Assembly: GCF_030053395.1 (NCBI RefSeq)
Contig: NZ_JASGBH010000005.1
Coordinates: 62,001-126,000, forward strand
Direction: 5' to 3'
Source: Limnohabitans lacus
GTDB lineage: Bacteria > Pseudomonadota > Gammaproteobacteria > Burkholderiales > Burkholderiaceae_C
Length of the DNA: 64,000 bases
How positions within the stretch are numbered: position 1 is the stretch's first letter; every line of letters starts with the position of its first letter. Below are positions 42,375-55,161 of this stretch, piece after piece. The position numbers and the translations under genes were made by a program. The notes beneath the pieces were generated by a model that was not told where the DNA came from, made no database searches, and saw only the letters and a program-made list of their open reading frames with translations.

Positions 42375-43454
42375 CTAACGGCGAAAAATTCGGCTGGACT
42401 CACGCACGATGATTTCAGCCTCAATCAATATGGTTGAAGGTGTTTTCTTTGACAGCAGGTCAATCATGGCTTTTGCAGCACTCGCGCCAATTTCGTAGAC
42501 TGACTGCCTCACTGTTGTCAGAGGTGGCAATGTGAAAGCCGAGTGGGGCAAATCATCAAAGCCAACAAGGGAGATGTCGTCTGGCACACGCAAACCTGCT
42601 CGGTGCAAAGCGAGCCTCGCGCCGTAAGCCATCTGATCGTTCGCTGCAATGACAGCACTGAAATTCACACGCGATTCTAGTAACTGATTCATGGCTCTGA
42701 AACCGCCAGACTCTTGGAAATCACTGTAAACCACCAAGGCATCGTCTGACGGCATATCTCGACGCGCCAACTCGGCACGGTAACCCATCAGCCTTTGTTC
42801 TGCGTCAGGATGATCAAGCGGTCCAGAAATGAACGCAACGTTCTGATGACCGAGTGCGTGCAGGTGCTTGACCGCCAGGCCTGCGCCTTCAATGTTGTCG
42901 AAATCAATGCTGAAAAGGTTGGGCGCCGAGAGTTGTCTGCCCGTCACCACAACAGGCAATTGATTGGCCATGTCAACCAATGTCTGATCCGCCAGCTTGC
43001 CCGTGAGCACGATGATGCCATCGACCTTTCGGTCCTGCAACAAGCCAAGTCGTGACCGTTCTTCTTCTTGATTCCAATGGCCACTGACAAACAGGGGTGC
43101 GTATTCAGCCTGATGCAGCACATCCTCGATGCCGCGCAGAGCCTCGCCATAAAACGGGCTGTCGATGTACTGAGTCAGCACACCGATGCTCATGGTTCGA
43201 CCACCAGCCAGACTGCGCGCGGTGGGGTCAGGCCGAAAACCCAGCTCCTCGATCACCTGACGCACCAGGGTCTGTTTGTCTTCGCTGACCTTGGCTGTGC
43301 CATTGAGGATTCGCGAAACTGTGCTGGGGGAGACCCCAGCACGCTGCGCCACCATACCCAAGGTTGCCCTGCCTTTGTAAAGAGGTTGTACTTCCGCCCC
43401 TTGGCTTGGGGCAGCGGTACTTCCATTGGCTGCCGAAGCTGGTTGTTTAAGCAT
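42375..43454 (-). CDS. LacI-family regulator of the beta-glucan locus
   Basis: 359 residues. A 30-residue leader, the LacI HTH (LGMVAQRAGVSPSTVSRILNG, about 32-52), the hinge helix with ARSLAGGR, and a periplasmic-binding-protein-like sensor domain. It lies 51 bp after the GH17 gene on the same strand, so porin-GH17-regulator look like one unit and the regulator would control itself. The palindrome TGAAAGCGCTTTCA, which fits LacI/CcpA-type sites, is found before every unit of the locus. Effector is presumably a laminari-oligosaccharide or glucose derivative (inferred). Confidence 0.9.
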   Translation of the reverse strand: MLKQPASAANGSTAAPSQGAEVQPLYKGRATLGMVAQRAGVSPSTVSRILNGTAKVSEDKQTLVRQVIEELGFRPDPTARSLAGGRTMSIGVLTQYIDSPFYGEALRGIEDVLHQAEYAPLFVSGHWNQEEERSRLGLLQDRKVDGIIVLTGKLADQTLVDMANQLPVVVTGRQLSAPNLFSIDFDNIEGAGLAVKHLHALGHQNVAFISGPLDHPDAEQRLMGYRAELARRDMPSDDALVVYSDFQESGGFRAMNQLLESRVNFSAVIAANDQMAYGARLALHRAGLRVPDDISLVGFDDLPHSAFTLPPLTTVRQSVYEIGASAAKAMIDLLSKKTPSTILIEAEIIVRESSRIFRR

Positions 43455-43505: not shown

Positions 43506-45254
43506 TCAACGGCTCCAGAAAATATCATCAATGAGGATGGGCGTCGTATCGTTGGTCCAGTTCGCCTTACCTGTCTTTTCATAACGATCAGCCAGAATGA
43601 AGGCATTGCTCACACGCCCCATTTGAAGCGCTGCAGGCGGCGAGTTAGAGCCAAAGGAAGATGCGCCGCTCTTGGTCAGTTCAGCGATCGGTATGGAAAC
43701 CGATTTCCATGTTCCATCGTTGCCATACCCATACTGTCCCGGGCTGAGCACCATCAGCACATCCCAAGCATTGAACTCAGCATCAGCACCGGTTTTGAAT
43801 CCCACTTCAATCTTGCCCTGGTACTGCGTCTTGATTTTGAAATTTAAATAACCTCCGGAAAACTGGGACAAATCGATCTCTTGCGTACCGAGTGTCCATG
43901 CCAGCCCCCATCCCCATTCTGCAGGACTGGGCGTGACTTGCCAGGCTGATGAGCCATCGCCCGAATTTTGCCCGGACACAGACTGCCCCTGCCATCCTGT
44001 CCAAGGACCCATCGTCAGCCCACTGATCCGGGTTTCGTCTGAATGGGTCATGTCCGCATAAATGGTGTAGCGCGATGTGGATACCGTCCCCTGATTAAAT
44101 GGAGCGGTGTAGTACTTGGCATTGACCTCAGCGCAAGCATTGCTCGGGTTGTTGGTGAGTGCCAGAGCAGTGCAACGTGCCGCACGATCACGATCAAACA
44201 ATCCCCAGCCATCATCGCTCGACTTCCAGCGTTCATCGAATGCCGCGAAGTAGAAGATCGTCTTGGGTCCATTGCTTTCCTGCTTCCAAGCACGCAGCCG
44301 ATCAAAGTACATCTTCTGGTTCACAGGGCTTGCCCACAAACTTTCACCGCCTGTGGCAACGGCCTTCCAACCTGTTTCGCCCACGATGACAGGCAAACGT
44401 CCATAGCCATTGGTGTCGAGATGATTGCGAACCGCTTGGTAATCGGCCTTTGCTTTGCCGATGGCTGCGTCCATCATGGCCACAGCACGCTGTGGGCCTG
44501 CCGGTGTTGCAGTCTGTTTCCAGTCCCAAAGGCCATACTTGATGTCTTCGGCAGGGTAGGTATGAAGGGATATGAAATCGATCTGATTGAAGACTGGATG
44601 AGGATCTTTCTCATTGCGTTGAGAAGCAAAAAATGCCCAATTGTCGTCGGTCGTAACAGGCTGGTTAACCTGATCGCGAACGCTGCGAAGATACACCGCC
44701 ATGTTCTGGGTGCTTTGTGGATTCCAACCGTTCCAGGACACAAGGGTTTCATTGCCAACGCTAATGGCCTTGACCACATTCGGATAAGCATTTGCCAGTG
44801 CGACAGCACGTGCGATTTCAGCGTTGTTGCGCGCCGAGTTGGCCTCATTGGTTGCAGTGTTAGTGCCGGTGGTACTGGCAATCCACACCCCCATCATCAC
44901 CTTCATGTCCAATGCTGGCGCCTGCTCGATGGCCGCGACTGTTTTTTGCGCCACTTTGGCATCAAAGACTCGCACCGCGCCAACTCCTGCATTGCTGAGT
45001 CATTCAAGATCAGAGCGAATCTGCGAAACGGGCATCGTATCTAACTCCGCCGCTAGGCCTGCCTCAGAAGTAGCCGTCCTGTATGGCGAGTATGCAACTG
45101 CCAAACGACTGGTGAAATCAGCGTCCAAACTGCGGACATTGACACCAGGCCATGGCACCTCACCACCACCACCGCAAGCCGTAAGTACCAATGCAGTCAG
45201 CCAAGCCAGAATACCCGTACAGAGGGCTGTCCATCGATTGAGTTTTGTTTTCAT
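43506..45254 (-). pseudogene. GH17 beta-1,3-glucanase lipoprotein, interrupted by an in-frame stop
   Basis: The 583-codon frame begins at ATG 45254 with a lipobox (LTACGG, Cys 27), then is cut at codon 85 by TGA (45000-45002). Reading continues in the same frame to 43506. GH17-type glutamates are ISVGNE (acid/base) and IVGETGW (nucleophile). The C-terminal 200 residues form a beta-rich module (about SGGYLNFKIKTQYQ to DDIFW). The stop stands in QIRSDLE*LSNAG, where relatives have a normal residue; one base change from CGA or TGG would do. Restart at GTG 44975 would lack the signal and the first strands. Real nonsense mutation or sequence error. Confidence 0.75.
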
Positions 45255-45277: not shown

Positions 45278-46603
45278 TCAAAAGACGTAGACCGTGCCCA
45301 GACCGATCCAATTGCCAGAGCGTGCGATCCGAGAGTCAACCCCAGAGAAAGCGCTGTTAGAAGGCATGGACATGGGGGCCAAACCCAGACGGTCGTACTG
45401 AACAATTCCTGCCATTGCATAGACCCGCCATCCCTGACCCAACTCTTTGCCTACACCGGCCGTCATCAAGGTCAAGCCGTTGCTTTGACCACGCTCCGAT
45501 GGGTTGTTGGTGCTGGCTTTGCCCAATCGCACCAGACCTGCCGAGTAGCTCCACTCCCCCTCTTTGTGCCGCAAACCCAACGACAAGTCTTGCGACGTAG
45601 CGGCATAGCCTGGGTTGCCGACACCCCTCAAGGTCCCATTCCAGTTCACGTTGAACATGTTGTTCCACATAGCCGAAGTGGTTGTGGTCGCAGGCTGCGT
45701 GATGACCGCGTAGGCACCGCTCCACCGGTTGAATCGCACGCCTGCCGACACCTGCCAGCGCGGGTTGATGTCGTAGCGGACCATCGCCATCGCGATCGCC
45801 TGCCCAGACCCACCCAATTTGCTGTCATCTGCGCCAAACGGCGTCAGGCCTGTGAATGGGCTTTGACCCCATGCTGAGGGTGTGCCATTGCGTGAATCCT
45901 GCAACACGCCGTCCAAAGCCAAATCACCTTTGCGGTACTGGGCCCACAGCTCCATAAATCGCGGCTTGTTGATCTTGAAATCGGTATTGCCTCGGTCGTA
46001 AGTGCCCTCCAGCACCAAATCACCTGAGAAGAGGTCATAGGGTCGGCTGGTGTACCGCACAGCATTTGTCATCAAACCGTAGCCCGCACCACTGCTGGCC
46101 CACGGGTAAGCAATGCCAATGTCCGTGCCATAGGGGTAATCCGCCACACTCCATGCACGGGAGGTCATGGCACCGACTCGGATACTCCCCCACTCTTCAT
46201 GGCTGATGGCCGCATTTTTTTCGAACCACTTGATGCCTTCAACATCGGGCTTGCCATCACGCCAGCGTTGGCTCAGTAAACCGTTGAGTTTGAAGCCCTG
46301 CCCCAGATCGAAATTGGCGCCTAACCACGGCTGCATCAAAGCGACACTGGTGTTTTGTGTGCTGTAGGCTTTGCCGGGCACCATTTCATCTGCCCAAATT
46401 CTTTGTTTACCCTCAGACGGAAAGCGCTGACAGTCTGTACATTGATTACTGCTGCGCGAAGCCTCCAATTTAACGAAGCCGTTAAGGGTAAATGGCCCGA
46501 ACTCGACCGCCTGAACACCCCCCACCAAAAGAGTTGTTGTCAATCCGATAACGAGGCGCAACAGAGGTGACGCAGGAGACCGTTTCAATGTTTGTTTATT
46601 CAT
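45278..46603 (-). CDS. Outer-membrane porin-like protein of the glucan locus
   Basis: 441 residues. Signal peptide ending VQAVE, then an amphipathic barrel (FTLNGFVKLEASRSS onward) ending with the aromatic terminus GTVYVF that porins use for BAM targeting. CTDC near residue 55 could form a disulfide. First gene of the unit with GH17 and the LacI regulator; a promoter and operator lie just ahead. Likely an oligosaccharide (beta-1,3-glucan) porin; specificity is inferred from context. Confidence 0.8.
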   Translation of the reverse strand: MNKQTLKRSPASPLLRLVIGLTTTLLVGGVQAVEFGPFTLNGFVKLEASRSSNQCTDCQRFPSEGKQRIWADEMVPGKAYSTQNTSVALMQPWLGANFDLGQGFKLNGLLSQRWRDGKPDVEGIKWFEKNAAISHEEWGSIRVGAMTSRAWSVADYPYGTDIGIAYPWASSGAGYGLMTNAVRYTSRPYDLFSGDLVLEGTYDRGNTDFKINKPRFMELWAQYRKGDLALDGVLQDSRNGTPSAWGQSPFTGLTPFGADDSKLGGSGQAIAMAMVRYDINPRWQVSAGVRFNRWSGAYAVITQPATTTTSAMWNNMFNVNWNGTLRGVGNPGYAATSQDLSLGLRHKEGEWSYSAGLVRLGKASTNNPSERGQSNGLTLMTAGVGKELGQGWRVYAMAGIVQYDRLGLAPMSMPSNSAFSGVDSRIARSGNWIGLGTVYVF

Positions 46604-46618
46604 GTGAGCTCATTTTGT

Positions 46619-46632
46619 TGAAAGCGCTTTCA
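46619..46632 (-). promoter_or_regulatory. LacI-family operator before the porin gene
   Basis: Perfect palindrome TGAAAGCGCTTTCA. It sits 1 bp past the -10 box (46634-46639) on the minus strand, so a bound repressor would cover the start site. Confidence 0.85.
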
Positions 46633-46734: not shown

Positions 46735-46748
46735 TGAAAGCGCTTTCA
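46735..46748 (+). promoter_or_regulatory. LacI-family operator before the GH81 gene
   Basis: Perfect palindrome TGAAAGCGCTTTCA, overlapping a TATTAT -10-like box (46731-46736) with a TTGCAA -35-like box about 19 bp further up. It is 103 bp from the porin-side operator, so both divergent promoters can be held by one or two repressors. Confidence 0.8.
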
Positions 46749-46784: not shown

Positions 46785-49058
46785 ATGCACCGCATGGTTT
46801 GGCGATCAATAACTTTCTGTCTGATTTCTGCTTGCATCGGCTTTGCCCAAGCACAAGACGCGGTGACAGCAGGGACCGCGAAATTACTCTCCTCGCCCAA
46901 ATCTGGTGACAGATCCGCCCCATCTGCGCATGGGCGGGAAGGCGTCATGCTCACCCGTGCAGCCCCCACCAACCAGTGGTATTCGAGCCTTTTGTTCAGC
47001 AAGGACCCTCAGCCGCTTTATGCCCAGCCGCTCACGGGACGCGCTACAGCTCAGGGCTTTGAGATGGCTTTGCCCATCAAGGCTGTCGTACCCACCGAAC
47101 GCAAAGACAACGAAATTCATTACCCTCACCGCCCGGCCCTGACCGTGCGACCCATGGCCTTCGAACCCACCATCGGGCGGCTGGCCCAAGCCAGCGACTG
47201 GGCCATCGATATCGCCATGGGGCAGTCTGGTCAGCGCTTTGACCTGACCATGGCGCATGGCAGCCCCTATGTATGGGGCCACATCAGCTCGGGCAACTTG
47301 CGCATTGACACCCAAGCCCCTGGACAGCGCATGCCCCACGATGACACTCGCGTGCTGCTTCTGCAGATTGAGGGGCAACGTTATGCCGTTTTTGGACCAG
47401 AAGGCGTGCGATTCGAAGCCGTGACACCCCAACGATGGGTTGCCCACATGCCTGCTGACAAGCGTCACTTCGTCCTAAGCGCCTTGCCCGATGACAGCGC
47501 AGAAAGCCTTTCGCTGATTTCGCGGCATGCGTACGTCCGTACCAGCGACACACGAGTCAATTGGCATTACGACGCTGCTGATCAGCAGTTGCGCACTCGA
47601 TATCACATCACGCCGCAGGTCTTAGAAGGTGAAGAACAGCGCCCATTGCAAGCCCTCTACCCTCACCACTGGCATCAGAACACCAGCTTCACACAGTCAC
47701 TCGGCCCCGCATACGCCACGGTACGCGGCCCACTCAAACTCTTGGCGAGCGCCGAATTCGAAACTCGCCTGCAACACAAAGGCTTTGTGCCATGGTGGCC
47801 ATCAACCCCCTCAAGCTCGCACAGCGAAACCCTTGTGAACCTGATCAACCAAGACTTGCGTGATGCCCGTCGCAACATGCTACACATCGGCAAAGGGCCC
47901 TACTGGCAAGGAAAAGGGCTTCTGCGCACCACCAAACTTCTGGATGTGGTTCAGGTGCAAGGCAGCAAAGAACAAGAGTTGCGCCTGATTGACCTTCTCA
48001 AAGGCCGGATCGAGGAGTGGTTTGCGGGGACTGATCGACAACGCTACTTTCACCTGGATCGTTCACTGGGCACCGTGCTGGGTTACCCGGAAGAATATTT
48101 TTCGATCGAGCAGATGAATGACCACCACTTCCACTACGGCTATTGGATCCGCGCCATGGCCGAATTGGCCTTGCGTGATCCGGACTGGGCCAGCCCTGAG
48201 CGCTGGGGGGGCATGGTGCCGTGGCTGATCAAAGACATTGCCACCGCCGAGCGCGGCAGAGCGGACTTCCCTTTCTTGCGGCACTTCGATGTTTATGAAG
48301 GCCACTCCTGGGCCTCTGGCGTTGCACTTGGAGATCTGGGAAACAACCAAGAGTCATCATCAGAGGCCATCAATGCCTGGGTGGGACTGATCCTTTGGGC
48401 CGAAATCCATGGCGACACGGCGCTGCGTGATCTGGGCGTGTATTTATACAACACTGAAATCGAGGCCATTCGGCATTACTGGTTCGATGTGAATCGTCTG
48501 GTCTTCCCACCTGAATACCCGCACATTGAAACCAGCATGCTCTTCGGCGGGGGTTACAAGCACAACACTTGGTGGACCGATGAACCCCGTCAAATCAAGG
48601 GCATCAATTTGTTGCCCATCACCACGGCATCAACGTACCTGGGCCTAGACCCCAAACACACACTGCAAAGCCTGGCCACGCTACCCAAGGACACCGCCAT
48701 GTTTGAGTCTCGTGGCAAAAAAGCCAATCCCAAGGACATCTGGCAAGACCTGTTTGCGAAATACATGGCGCTGACTGATCCCGCAAAAGCCCTTTCGCAA
48801 TGGGAACGCTGGGGCTCGGTGGAACTGGGCGAATCACGCACCCACACCTTGCACTACCTGATGAGCCTGCAGTCCATGGGCACGCCGGATTTCAGCATCC
48901 ACGCCGACACACCCTTGCACGCCGTTTTCAAACGCCCTGACGGGGCACGGCACTACTTGGCCTTCAATGCCGACCGCAAAGCTCCTCGCACGGTGCGTTT
49001 CAGCAACGGCGTCACGCTCACCGCACCGCCTGGCACCCTCGCGCAAACATCGCGCTGA
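46785..49058 (+). CDS. GH81 endo-beta-1,3-glucanase
   Basis: 757 residues. Sec signal ending FAQAQ, then the GH81 catalytic region in the second half: FLRHFDVYEGHSWASG (general acid Asp) and NNQESSSEAINAW (base/nucleophilic glutamates), both GH81 hallmarks. The N-terminal half is the beta-sandwich of the family. It cuts internal beta-1,3 bonds of laminarin-type glucans. GGAG stands 7 bases before ATG. First gene of a plus-strand unit with the Ig-domain lipoprotein. Confidence 0.95.
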   Translation: MHRMVWRSITFCLISACIGFAQAQDAVTAGTAKLLSSPKSGDRSAPSAHGREGVMLTRAAPTNQWYSSLLFSKDPQPLYAQPLTGRATAQGFEMALPIKAVVPTERKDNEIHYPHRPALTVRPMAFEPTIGRLAQASDWAIDIAMGQSGQRFDLTMAHGSPYVWGHISSGNLRIDTQAPGQRMPHDDTRVLLLQIEGQRYAVFGPEGVRFEAVTPQRWVAHMPADKRHFVLSALPDDSAESLSLISRHAYVRTSDTRVNWHYDAADQQLRTRYHITPQVLEGEEQRPLQALYPHHWHQNTSFTQSLGPAYATVRGPLKLLASAEFETRLQHKGFVPWWPSTPSSSHSETLVNLINQDLRDARRNMLHIGKGPYWQGKGLLRTTKLLDVVQVQGSKEQELRLIDLLKGRIEEWFAGTDRQRYFHLDRSLGTVLGYPEEYFSIEQMNDHHFHYGYWIRAMAELALRDPDWASPERWGGMVPWLIKDIATAERGRADFPFLRHFDVYEGHSWASGVALGDLGNNQESSSEAINAWVGLILWAEIHGDTALRDLGVYLYNTEIEAIRHYWFDVNRLVFPPEYPHIETSMLFGGGYKHNTWWTDEPRQIKGINLLPITTASTYLGLDPKHTLQSLATLPKDTAMFESRGKKANPKDIWQDLFAKYMALTDPAKALSQWERWGSVELGESRTHTLHYLMSLQSMGTPDFSIHADTPLHAVFKRPDGARHYLAFNADRKAPRTVRFSNGVTLTAPPGTLAQTSR

Positions 49059-49117
49059 TTTAAGGGTAAGTCCTAGCCATTCGCTGTTGCATTCAAGATG
49101 GCACTTGCATACCATTA

Positions 49118-49144
49118 TGAAAGCGATTTCAGAAAGCGGTTTCA
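49118..49144 (+). promoter_or_regulatory. Tandem pair of LacI-family operator-like sites before the lipoprotein gene
   Basis: TGAAAGCGATTTCA (49118-49131) and AGAAAGCGGTTTCA (49131-49144), each one or two changes from the perfect palindrome elsewhere in the locus and sharing a base. Centre-to-centre distance is 13 bp. They lie 32 bp before the start codon. Confidence 0.65.
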
Positions 49145-49176
49145 TTTCATTCACCATAAGGTCTAAGGAGACAAGC

Positions 49177-50211
49177 ATGCAAGACATCCACAGCAAATTC
49201 AAACTGACTGCGACTGCCACAGCACTGGCGGTCTCGGCACTTTTGGCCGCGTGCGGCGGTGGCGGTAGTGCCTCAGCGCCAGCGGACACCACTGCGCCCA
49301 CGGTCACCATCACGGACAACGTGAGCGGCGCCACCGCCAGCGGCAACGTCACTTTCACCTTCACCTTCAGCGAAGCCGTGACAGGCTTCACGGCAGACGA
49401 CGTGACCGTGACCAATGGCACCAAGAGCACCTTCACCATGGCCAACGATGGACTGAGTGCCACCTTGGTGGTCATCCCGACCGCCAACGCGGCCGCCACC
49501 ATGACCGTGGCAGTGGCTGCCAACACCTTCAGCGACCAGGCCAGCATCAACAACACCACCACAAGCTCTGGCTCTCAGGCTTTCGACACCGTAGTCAATG
49601 CCCTGTCCTTTGCCAGTGGTTACTCAGCCATCAATCCCGCCAGCGTAGGCTATGCCTACCAAGGCTTGACCACCGAAGGCGGCGCATTCAATTGGACAGT
49701 CGCGACTCCCGGCACCTACGTCTGGGACGGTGGTGTCGACTTCTGGTGGTCAGGTGTCGCCGGCAGCGATGCCACCCCCAACTTCTTTTGGGGTGGCAAG
49801 GGCAAAGCGGATCAGGACTACATGGAAAGCTGGGTCAATGCACAGTCCAATTCGACCATCACGCTGACGGGGCAAACCGTGCTGCGGATCGCCGTCTGGG
49901 GCAACGATGAATTGGTGGGCGCCCCTCGCTTCACCCCGGTGGTGCAACTGGCTGGCAACAACGGTTGCTATGCCCGCGCCGAAGCCCCTGCGCTCACGCC
50001 CGCAGCCACCGGTGTTGCCACTTACAACGTTGCGCTGAGCACGTTCACGGTGGTAGAGAACTGCGGCACGGCAATGACCACGGCCCAATTTTTCACCAAT
50101 GCGATCGGCTCGGTGCGGGTCCGGATCTACAAGGCGAACTACTTCAACGATGGAGGCACCTACACATCGCCCAACGGCATCAACCTCGGCCCCATTTCCT
50201 TCCAGCCCTAA
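49177..50211 (+). CDS. Ig-domain lipoprotein of unknown function in the glucan regulon
   Basis: 344 residues. Lipobox LLAACGGGG (Cys about 25), a bacterial Ig-like repeat (about 38-130, DTTAPTVTITDNVSG to FSDQAS), and a C-terminal domain of about 200 residues I do not recognise. That domain is rich in aromatic residues (VDFWWSG, NFFWGGKG), which often make up carbohydrate-binding faces, and has one cysteine pair (NNGCYA, VENCGT). SD AAGGAG is strong. It has its own operator pair. Likely a surface or periplasmic beta-glucan-binding protein; not shown. Confidence 0.8.
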   Translation: MQDIHSKFKLTATATALAVSALLAACGGGGSASAPADTTAPTVTITDNVSGATASGNVTFTFTFSEAVTGFTADDVTVTNGTKSTFTMANDGLSATLVVIPTANAAATMTVAVAANTFSDQASINNTTTSSGSQAFDTVVNALSFASGYSAINPASVGYAYQGLTTEGGAFNWTVATPGTYVWDGGVDFWWSGVAGSDATPNFFWGGKGKADQDYMESWVNAQSNSTITLTGQTVLRIAVWGNDELVGAPRFTPVVQLAGNNGCYARAEAPALTPAATGVATYNVALSTFTVVENCGTAMTTAQFFTNAIGSVRVRIYKANYFNDGGTYTSPNGINLGPISFQP

Positions 50212-53639: not shown

Positions 53640-53893
53640 TTAACTCTTCACTGCGCCAGCCGTGAGGCCAGCGATCAGTCGTTTGGATGAAAAAATGAAA
53701 ATCACCAACAAGGGAAGAACAGCAACCACGGCGCCAGCCATGAGTGCTGCACCCCTTGAACAGGGTCCCAGGCGTTGAACACCAAGTACAGCGAAAAAGC
53801 AATGGGAAACAGTCCAAAGACCAGAAACAACAATACAAAGGGCAGGACAAACACATAAGGTGCCCAGTCCTGATGCCAGCGAATCGGGCTCAT
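53640..53893 (-). pseudogene. Fused remnant of two sugar ABC permease genes (MalF-like start, MalG-like end)
   Basis: The minus-strand frame from ATG 53893 reads a MalF-type N-terminus (APYVFVLPFVLLFLVFG to YLVFNAWDPVQG, 40-odd residues). In another frame, bases 53760-53640 read a MalG-type C-terminus (GAALMAGAVVAVLPLLVIF to LIAGLTAGAVKS, stop TAA). Everything between, about 1.4-1.5 kb in intact operons, is absent. The junction lies near 53745-53765. ATG overlaps the binding-protein stop (ATGA), as an intact malF gene would. Confidence 0.85.
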
Positions 53894-55147: not shown

Positions 55148-55161
55148 TGAAAGCGCTTTCA
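55148..55161 (-). promoter_or_regulatory. LacI-family operator before the sugar-binding protein gene
   Basis: Perfect palindrome TGAAAGCGCTTTCA, directly after a TAAAAT -10-like box on the minus strand and 10 bp from the start codon, touching the SD. Confidence 0.85.

Follow-up and report, generated by a model that had tools for sequence, protein, structure and literature searches.

Results

The window analyzed here is a 64,000-nt stretch of the Limnohabitans lacus genome, and all coordinates are positions within it. Between 42.4 and 55.2 kb we noticed a gene cluster, newly recognized here, which its enzyme families mark as a probable β-1,3-glucan (laminarin-type) utilization locus. Its importer operon lies on the minus strand and runs from an intact gene for an SBP_bac_1 sugar-binding protein (55137 to 53890; PF01547, E value of 2.8e-25) through a short remnant (53893 to 53640) to an intact GH1 β-glucosidase gene (53636 to 52299; Pfam GH1, E value of 1.4e-156; TIGR03356 above its cutoff), an intact gene for a MalK/UgpC-type ATPase (52295 to 51216; PF00005, E value of 1.6e-33; PF08402, E value of 1.9e-6), and a GH16 glucanase gene (51219 to 50284; Pfam E value of 1.9e-15). 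The ATPase scores 432.7 bits against NF008653, just above the cutoff of 432. The GH1 enzyme is the only match of its family in the genome, and by eye it has no obvious export signal.

Beyond the operon, two open reading frames lie on the plus strand. One (48967 to 50211, with the true start probably further in) has a Big_12 Ig-like domain by Pfam and, by eye, is a probable lipoprotein; the other (46785 to 49058) is an open GH81 gene, with a clear C-terminal domain (GH81C, E value of 1.3e-45) and a weak N-terminal domain. The remaining genes are on the minus strand and encode a probable outer membrane protein (45278 to 46603), named by eye and with no Pfam match of note, a GH17 enzyme (43506 to 45254), whose frame is broken and whose Pfam score of 26.9 bits (E value of 4.8e-6) is under the cutoff of 28.2, and a LacI-family regulator (42375 to 43454; PF00356 and PF13377).

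Laminarin utilization loci in general carry GH17, GH81, GH16, and GH1 genes together with a sugar importer and a LacI-type regulator. The same combination is seen here, with several β-1,3-glucan-active families side by side (GH81, GH16, and GH1, plus GH17 below its cutoff). The locus differs from this picture in that its importer is of the ABC type, that the importer and GH17 are broken, and that the substrate is read from the enzyme families, whose known activities make laminarin or another β-1,3-glucan most likely.

The 254-bp remnant at 53640 to 53893 consists of about the first 47 codons of malF and about the last 35 codons of malG, in different frames. Translation from the MalF-type start gives MSPIRWHQDW...NAWDPVQG, continues out of frame, and stops after 63 residues, while the second frame, GAALMAGAVVAVLPLLVIFIFSSKRLIAGLTAGAVKS*, is the end of MalG. 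Comparison of the codons on both sides with those of relatives places the malF part, from the start codon to codon ~47 (AWDPVQG), at 53754 to 53893, the malG part with its stop codon at 53640 to 53747, and the deletion joint with its change of frame within 53747 to 53753, all on the minus strand. Pfam searches with the two remnant peptides separately returned no family at an E value of ≤1. The full-length proteins of the closest genome that carries the locus (G002), however, do match: its MalF is 70% identical to the remnant over 40 amino acids (E value of 2.7e-12), and its MalG is 89% identical over 38 amino acids (E value of 8.8e-13), so the permease likeness of the two ends is not due to chance. 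The initial annotation had proposed a MalF-like start joined to a MalG-like end in different frames, and had allowed that the ends might prove to be unlike permeases; translation and the G002 matches bear the proposal out. The flanks also look as it had described them, with an ATGA overlap with the binding-protein gene at 53890 to 53893 and a 3-bp gap to the GH1 start.

In the remnant, 8 nt, counted by eye, separate the malF VQG codon from the malG leucine codon. The same distance in 29 related loci is 1,486 to 1,531 bp (median, 1,520), and in G002 it is 1,523 bp, which puts the missing segment at about 1,512 to 1,515 bp and agrees with the previous estimate of 1.4 to 1.5 kb. There is no N in the window, and the joint is located inside a contig of 229,882 bp.

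The operon resembles a maltose-type (CUT1) MalEFGK2 system in its periplasmic binding protein of the SBP_bac_1 type (PF01547) and its MalK-like ATPase with a C-terminal TOBE/OB domain (PF00005 and PF08402); relatives also have the MalF and MalG permeases in the cluster. It differs in that both permease genes are reduced to the out-of-frame remnant. Of two BPD_transp_1 membrane subunits only two gene ends remain, and none of the 22 BPD_transp_1 matches of the genome lies in the importer operon, which alone cannot make a transporter. As the initial annotation had stated, the ATPase and the binding protein are left without a channel.

We compared the locus with its relatives. A binding-protein relative at an E value of ≤1e-100 was found in 31 of the 90 genomes of the genus, the own genome included. 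We examined 32 loci in 31 related genomes, of which 29 belong to the genus and make up all but one of its 30 other genomes with a binding protein at this threshold; G059, whose contig stops 55 bases past the binding-protein match, was set aside, as were the weak binding-protein matches with E values of 4.9e-22 and weaker (G015, G055, G072, G080, and G097). Three of the loci read (L090, L094, and L098) are cut by a contig end and fall outside the 29 that could be evaluated. In all 29 that reach far enough, malF and malG adjoin GH1, and in 28 of these the binding-protein gene is directly beside malF, the exception being L041, where it is several kilobases away. Coverage of the query by the malF open frame reaches 90% or more in 31 of the 32 loci, and that by the malG open frame does so in 28, the exceptions being the three cut loci and L087, whose malG matches from residue 32 only. 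G002, whose binding protein is 78% identical over the matched part, has full malF and malG genes at the same place. The permease genes are therefore present in every evaluable relative and broken here.

Some of the related loci show peculiarities of their own. In L041 (G017), a rearranged version of the locus, the binding-protein gene stands apart from malF-malG-GH1-ATPase and has a GH16 relative beside it. The binding-protein relative of L073 (G120:C570:1666-2883), from a fragmented assembly of a genus genome, has one internal TAA, perhaps an assembly error or an independent lesion. The GH16 relative at L028:4215-5043 (G046) is split into three matches in different frames, which suggests that it carries frameshifts.

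The frame of the GH17 gene starts at 45254 and meets a TGA at 45002 to 45000, codon 85 of 582; the remaining 497 codons are open. A GH17 relative (E value of ≤1e-60) was found in 13 other genomes of the genus, in every case with an open frame (581 to 665 amino acids) and leucine in the column of the stop, although these relatives are only 47 to 51% identical and G002 has none at this threshold. Since a lipoprotein-like signal, recognized by eye, precedes the stop, export would probably fail for a product restarted downstream of it. The stop thus appears to be a second lesion in the locus, which the initial annotation did not mention. A GH17 relative is present in 9 of the 32 related loci as fetched (none in the other 23), and in all 9 it adjoins a relative of the probable outer membrane protein gene, as in the window, which indicates that GH17 is part of this type of locus.

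To put the two lesions against a background, we looked at transporter domains throughout the genome. No internal stop was seen in any of the 22 BPD_transp_1 matches (20 over the cutoff) or the 80 ABC_tran matches (75 over the cutoff, one of them the ATPase of the locus), counting the matched domains only. With 0 of 102 ABC transporter domain matches interrupted, broken genes are not widespread in the assembly.

A 12-bp palindrome, GAAAGCGCTTTC, has three exact copies in the genome, all within the locus, and the reversed pattern, taken as a control, is found 0 times. The copies lie upstream of the binding-protein operon (55149 to 55160), GH81 (46736 to 46747), and the outer membrane protein and GH17 genes (46620 to 46631). 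Among the 30 related loci in which the region is visible (32 minus 2 that are cut), 25 have the palindrome at most 200 bp upstream of the binding-protein start, and an exact copy is absent in 5. Weaker sites with up to two mismatches number 11 in the window, against a mean of 3.48 in shuffled sequences, and only 1 of 100 shuffles had as many. The palindrome is probably the operator of the local LacI-type regulator, and we regard each of the three copies as a probable operator. At the level of exact matches, their confinement to the locus means that the wiring has been kept and that it points at no substitute permease; a substitute permease under the same regulator was rejected on this ground, at the exact-match level only.

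The genome was also searched for another copy of the permease genes. A 301-bp segment that includes the remnant has a single match in the 3.15-Mb assembly of 27 contigs. With the MalF and MalG of G002 as queries, no second copy was found in the genome besides the remnant, only distant permeases on contigs C22, C12, and C26 (23 to 32% identity in the longer matches and 35% in one short match). The contig C26 system, where the gene order shows a pair of permeases, a pair of ATPases, and a long protein that is probably exported, is presumably of the glycerol type. The permease pairs of C22 and C12 are 26 to 30% identical to the G002 proteins over the main matches, and each sits in a complete importer with an ATPase, a binding protein, and two permeases. 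In NCBIfam, both permeases and the binding protein of C22, and one permease and the binding protein of C12, fall near sugar transport families but below every named cutoff. An orphan permease pair elsewhere was rejected, because the pairs most like the lost one each have an ATPase and a binding protein beside them.

We further asked how fast the surviving genes have changed, in a relative-rate comparison with the intact sister G002 over the columns shared with its partly truncated genes (365 for the binding protein, 445 for GH1, and 210 for the ATPase). Mean unique changes were 17.7 here and 23.2 in G002 for the binding protein, 27.6 and 23.2 for GH1, and 7.7 and 8.8 for the ATPase. At columns invariant in the other loci, the three proteins depart at 4, 1, and 2 positions here and at 5, 2, and 2 in G002, in the same order. 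In this comparison, none of the three shows a clear speed-up. Relaxed change is not visible, which leaves three readings: a recent deletion, genes that are still in use, or an artifactual deletion.

The 70-nt flanks of the two breakpoints in G002 have no more than 6 nt in common, and this stretch is out of register with the joint. A deletion between long direct repeats was rejected on this evidence. The remnant itself contains two imperfect repeats (19 nt at 84% and 18 nt at 89%). These do not explain the joint, because both copies of each survive, which would not be so had they formed the ends of this deletion.

Discussion

We consider it likely, with a probability of roughly two in three, that a laminarin-type locus has recently lost its importer by real pseudogenization. 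A single deletion of about 1.5 kb would have removed everything between codon ~47 of malF and the last ~35 codons of malG, with the out-of-frame remnant as its result. Lacking both membrane subunits, the binding protein and the MalK-type ATPase would be unable to import oligosaccharides, and the GH1 enzyme, which is probably cytoplasmic, would be starved of its substrate. The importer lost and GH17 also stopped early, the pathway may be decaying under lost selection, in nature or in culture. What favors a real and recent loss is that two different lesions lie in one catabolic locus, that the background of broken genes is low, and that no repeat explains the joint. The recency would follow from the lack of a clear speed-up in three genes. 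Operon pseudogenes formed by internal deletion typically are clean out-of-frame fusions of two neighboring genes with intact flanks. The present remnant is of this type; all that sets it apart is the presence of another lesion in the same locus, together with the retention of the probable operators. The loss would be ordinary gene loss, a process that is well known in general; among the titles and abstract openings found in a literature search, none describes a comparable loss of permeases from the laminarin locus of a betaproteobacterium.

Both the joint and the GH17 stop are known from a single assembly, a draft in 27 contigs. A dropped segment or mixed strains could mimic the loss if intact malF and malG are in fact present, in which case the GH17 stop would be a miscalled base or a minority variant. 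Everything else in the locus (palindromes, regulator, GH81, GH16, GH1, binding protein, and ATPase) is open, and this open remainder, with its three unrelaxed genes, is equally compatible with a functioning locus and with a mistake in the assembly. We nevertheless hold such an artifact to be unlikely, since no repeat that would provoke a collapse was found at the breakpoints, the joint lies inside a long contig, and a second, different lesion occurs in the same locus while none of the 102 transporter domain matches contains a stop. The initial annotation had left lost uptake and assembly loss undecided; the GH17 lesion, the absence of stops in those matches, the long contig, and the lack of any N lean toward a real loss. 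Its account of the collapse of both permeases, the size of the deletion, and the orphaned ATPase and binding protein also stands, while the two outcomes it offered for the cell, another permease or only external hydrolysis, fare less well.

The first of these would require that the deletion is real and that uptake continues, with the binding protein and ATPase working with the permease pair of C22 or C12. Two further complete sugar importers with a MalF/MalG-type pair do exist, the flanking genes are not visibly relaxed, and in the case of MsmK one ATPase is described as serving several carbohydrates (PMC4519317). That precedent of a shared ATPase says nothing about a binding protein with a foreign permease, however, and the candidate pairs are only distantly similar, have their own binding protein and ATPase, and lack the exact palindrome, which occurs nowhere outside the locus. 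Uptake by this route is thus quite improbable. It is a long shot, too, that the locus has been rewired, so that a binding protein and an ATPase under a private laminarin regulator feed the permeases of another importer, a subunit swap that the deletion of the original pair would have fixed. Scarcely credible is that what is left of the locus is retained solely for external hydrolysis, with glucanases acting outside the inner membrane and the monomer entering by another importer, because, although the GH81 and GH16 genes are open and other sugar importers are present, GH17, one of three probable exported glucanases, is broken, the sole GH1 enzyme has no obvious signal sequence, and GH3 matches in the genome are confined to one 399-amino-acid frame, presumably the cell wall enzyme NagZ.

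If the preferred reading of a real and recent loss is correct, a laminarin pathway has been caught early in its loss, with transport and one glucanase gone and regulation and the other enzymes still present. Scoring by counts of glucanase or binding-protein genes would then call this organism a laminarin user, while import of the sugar is probably impossible.
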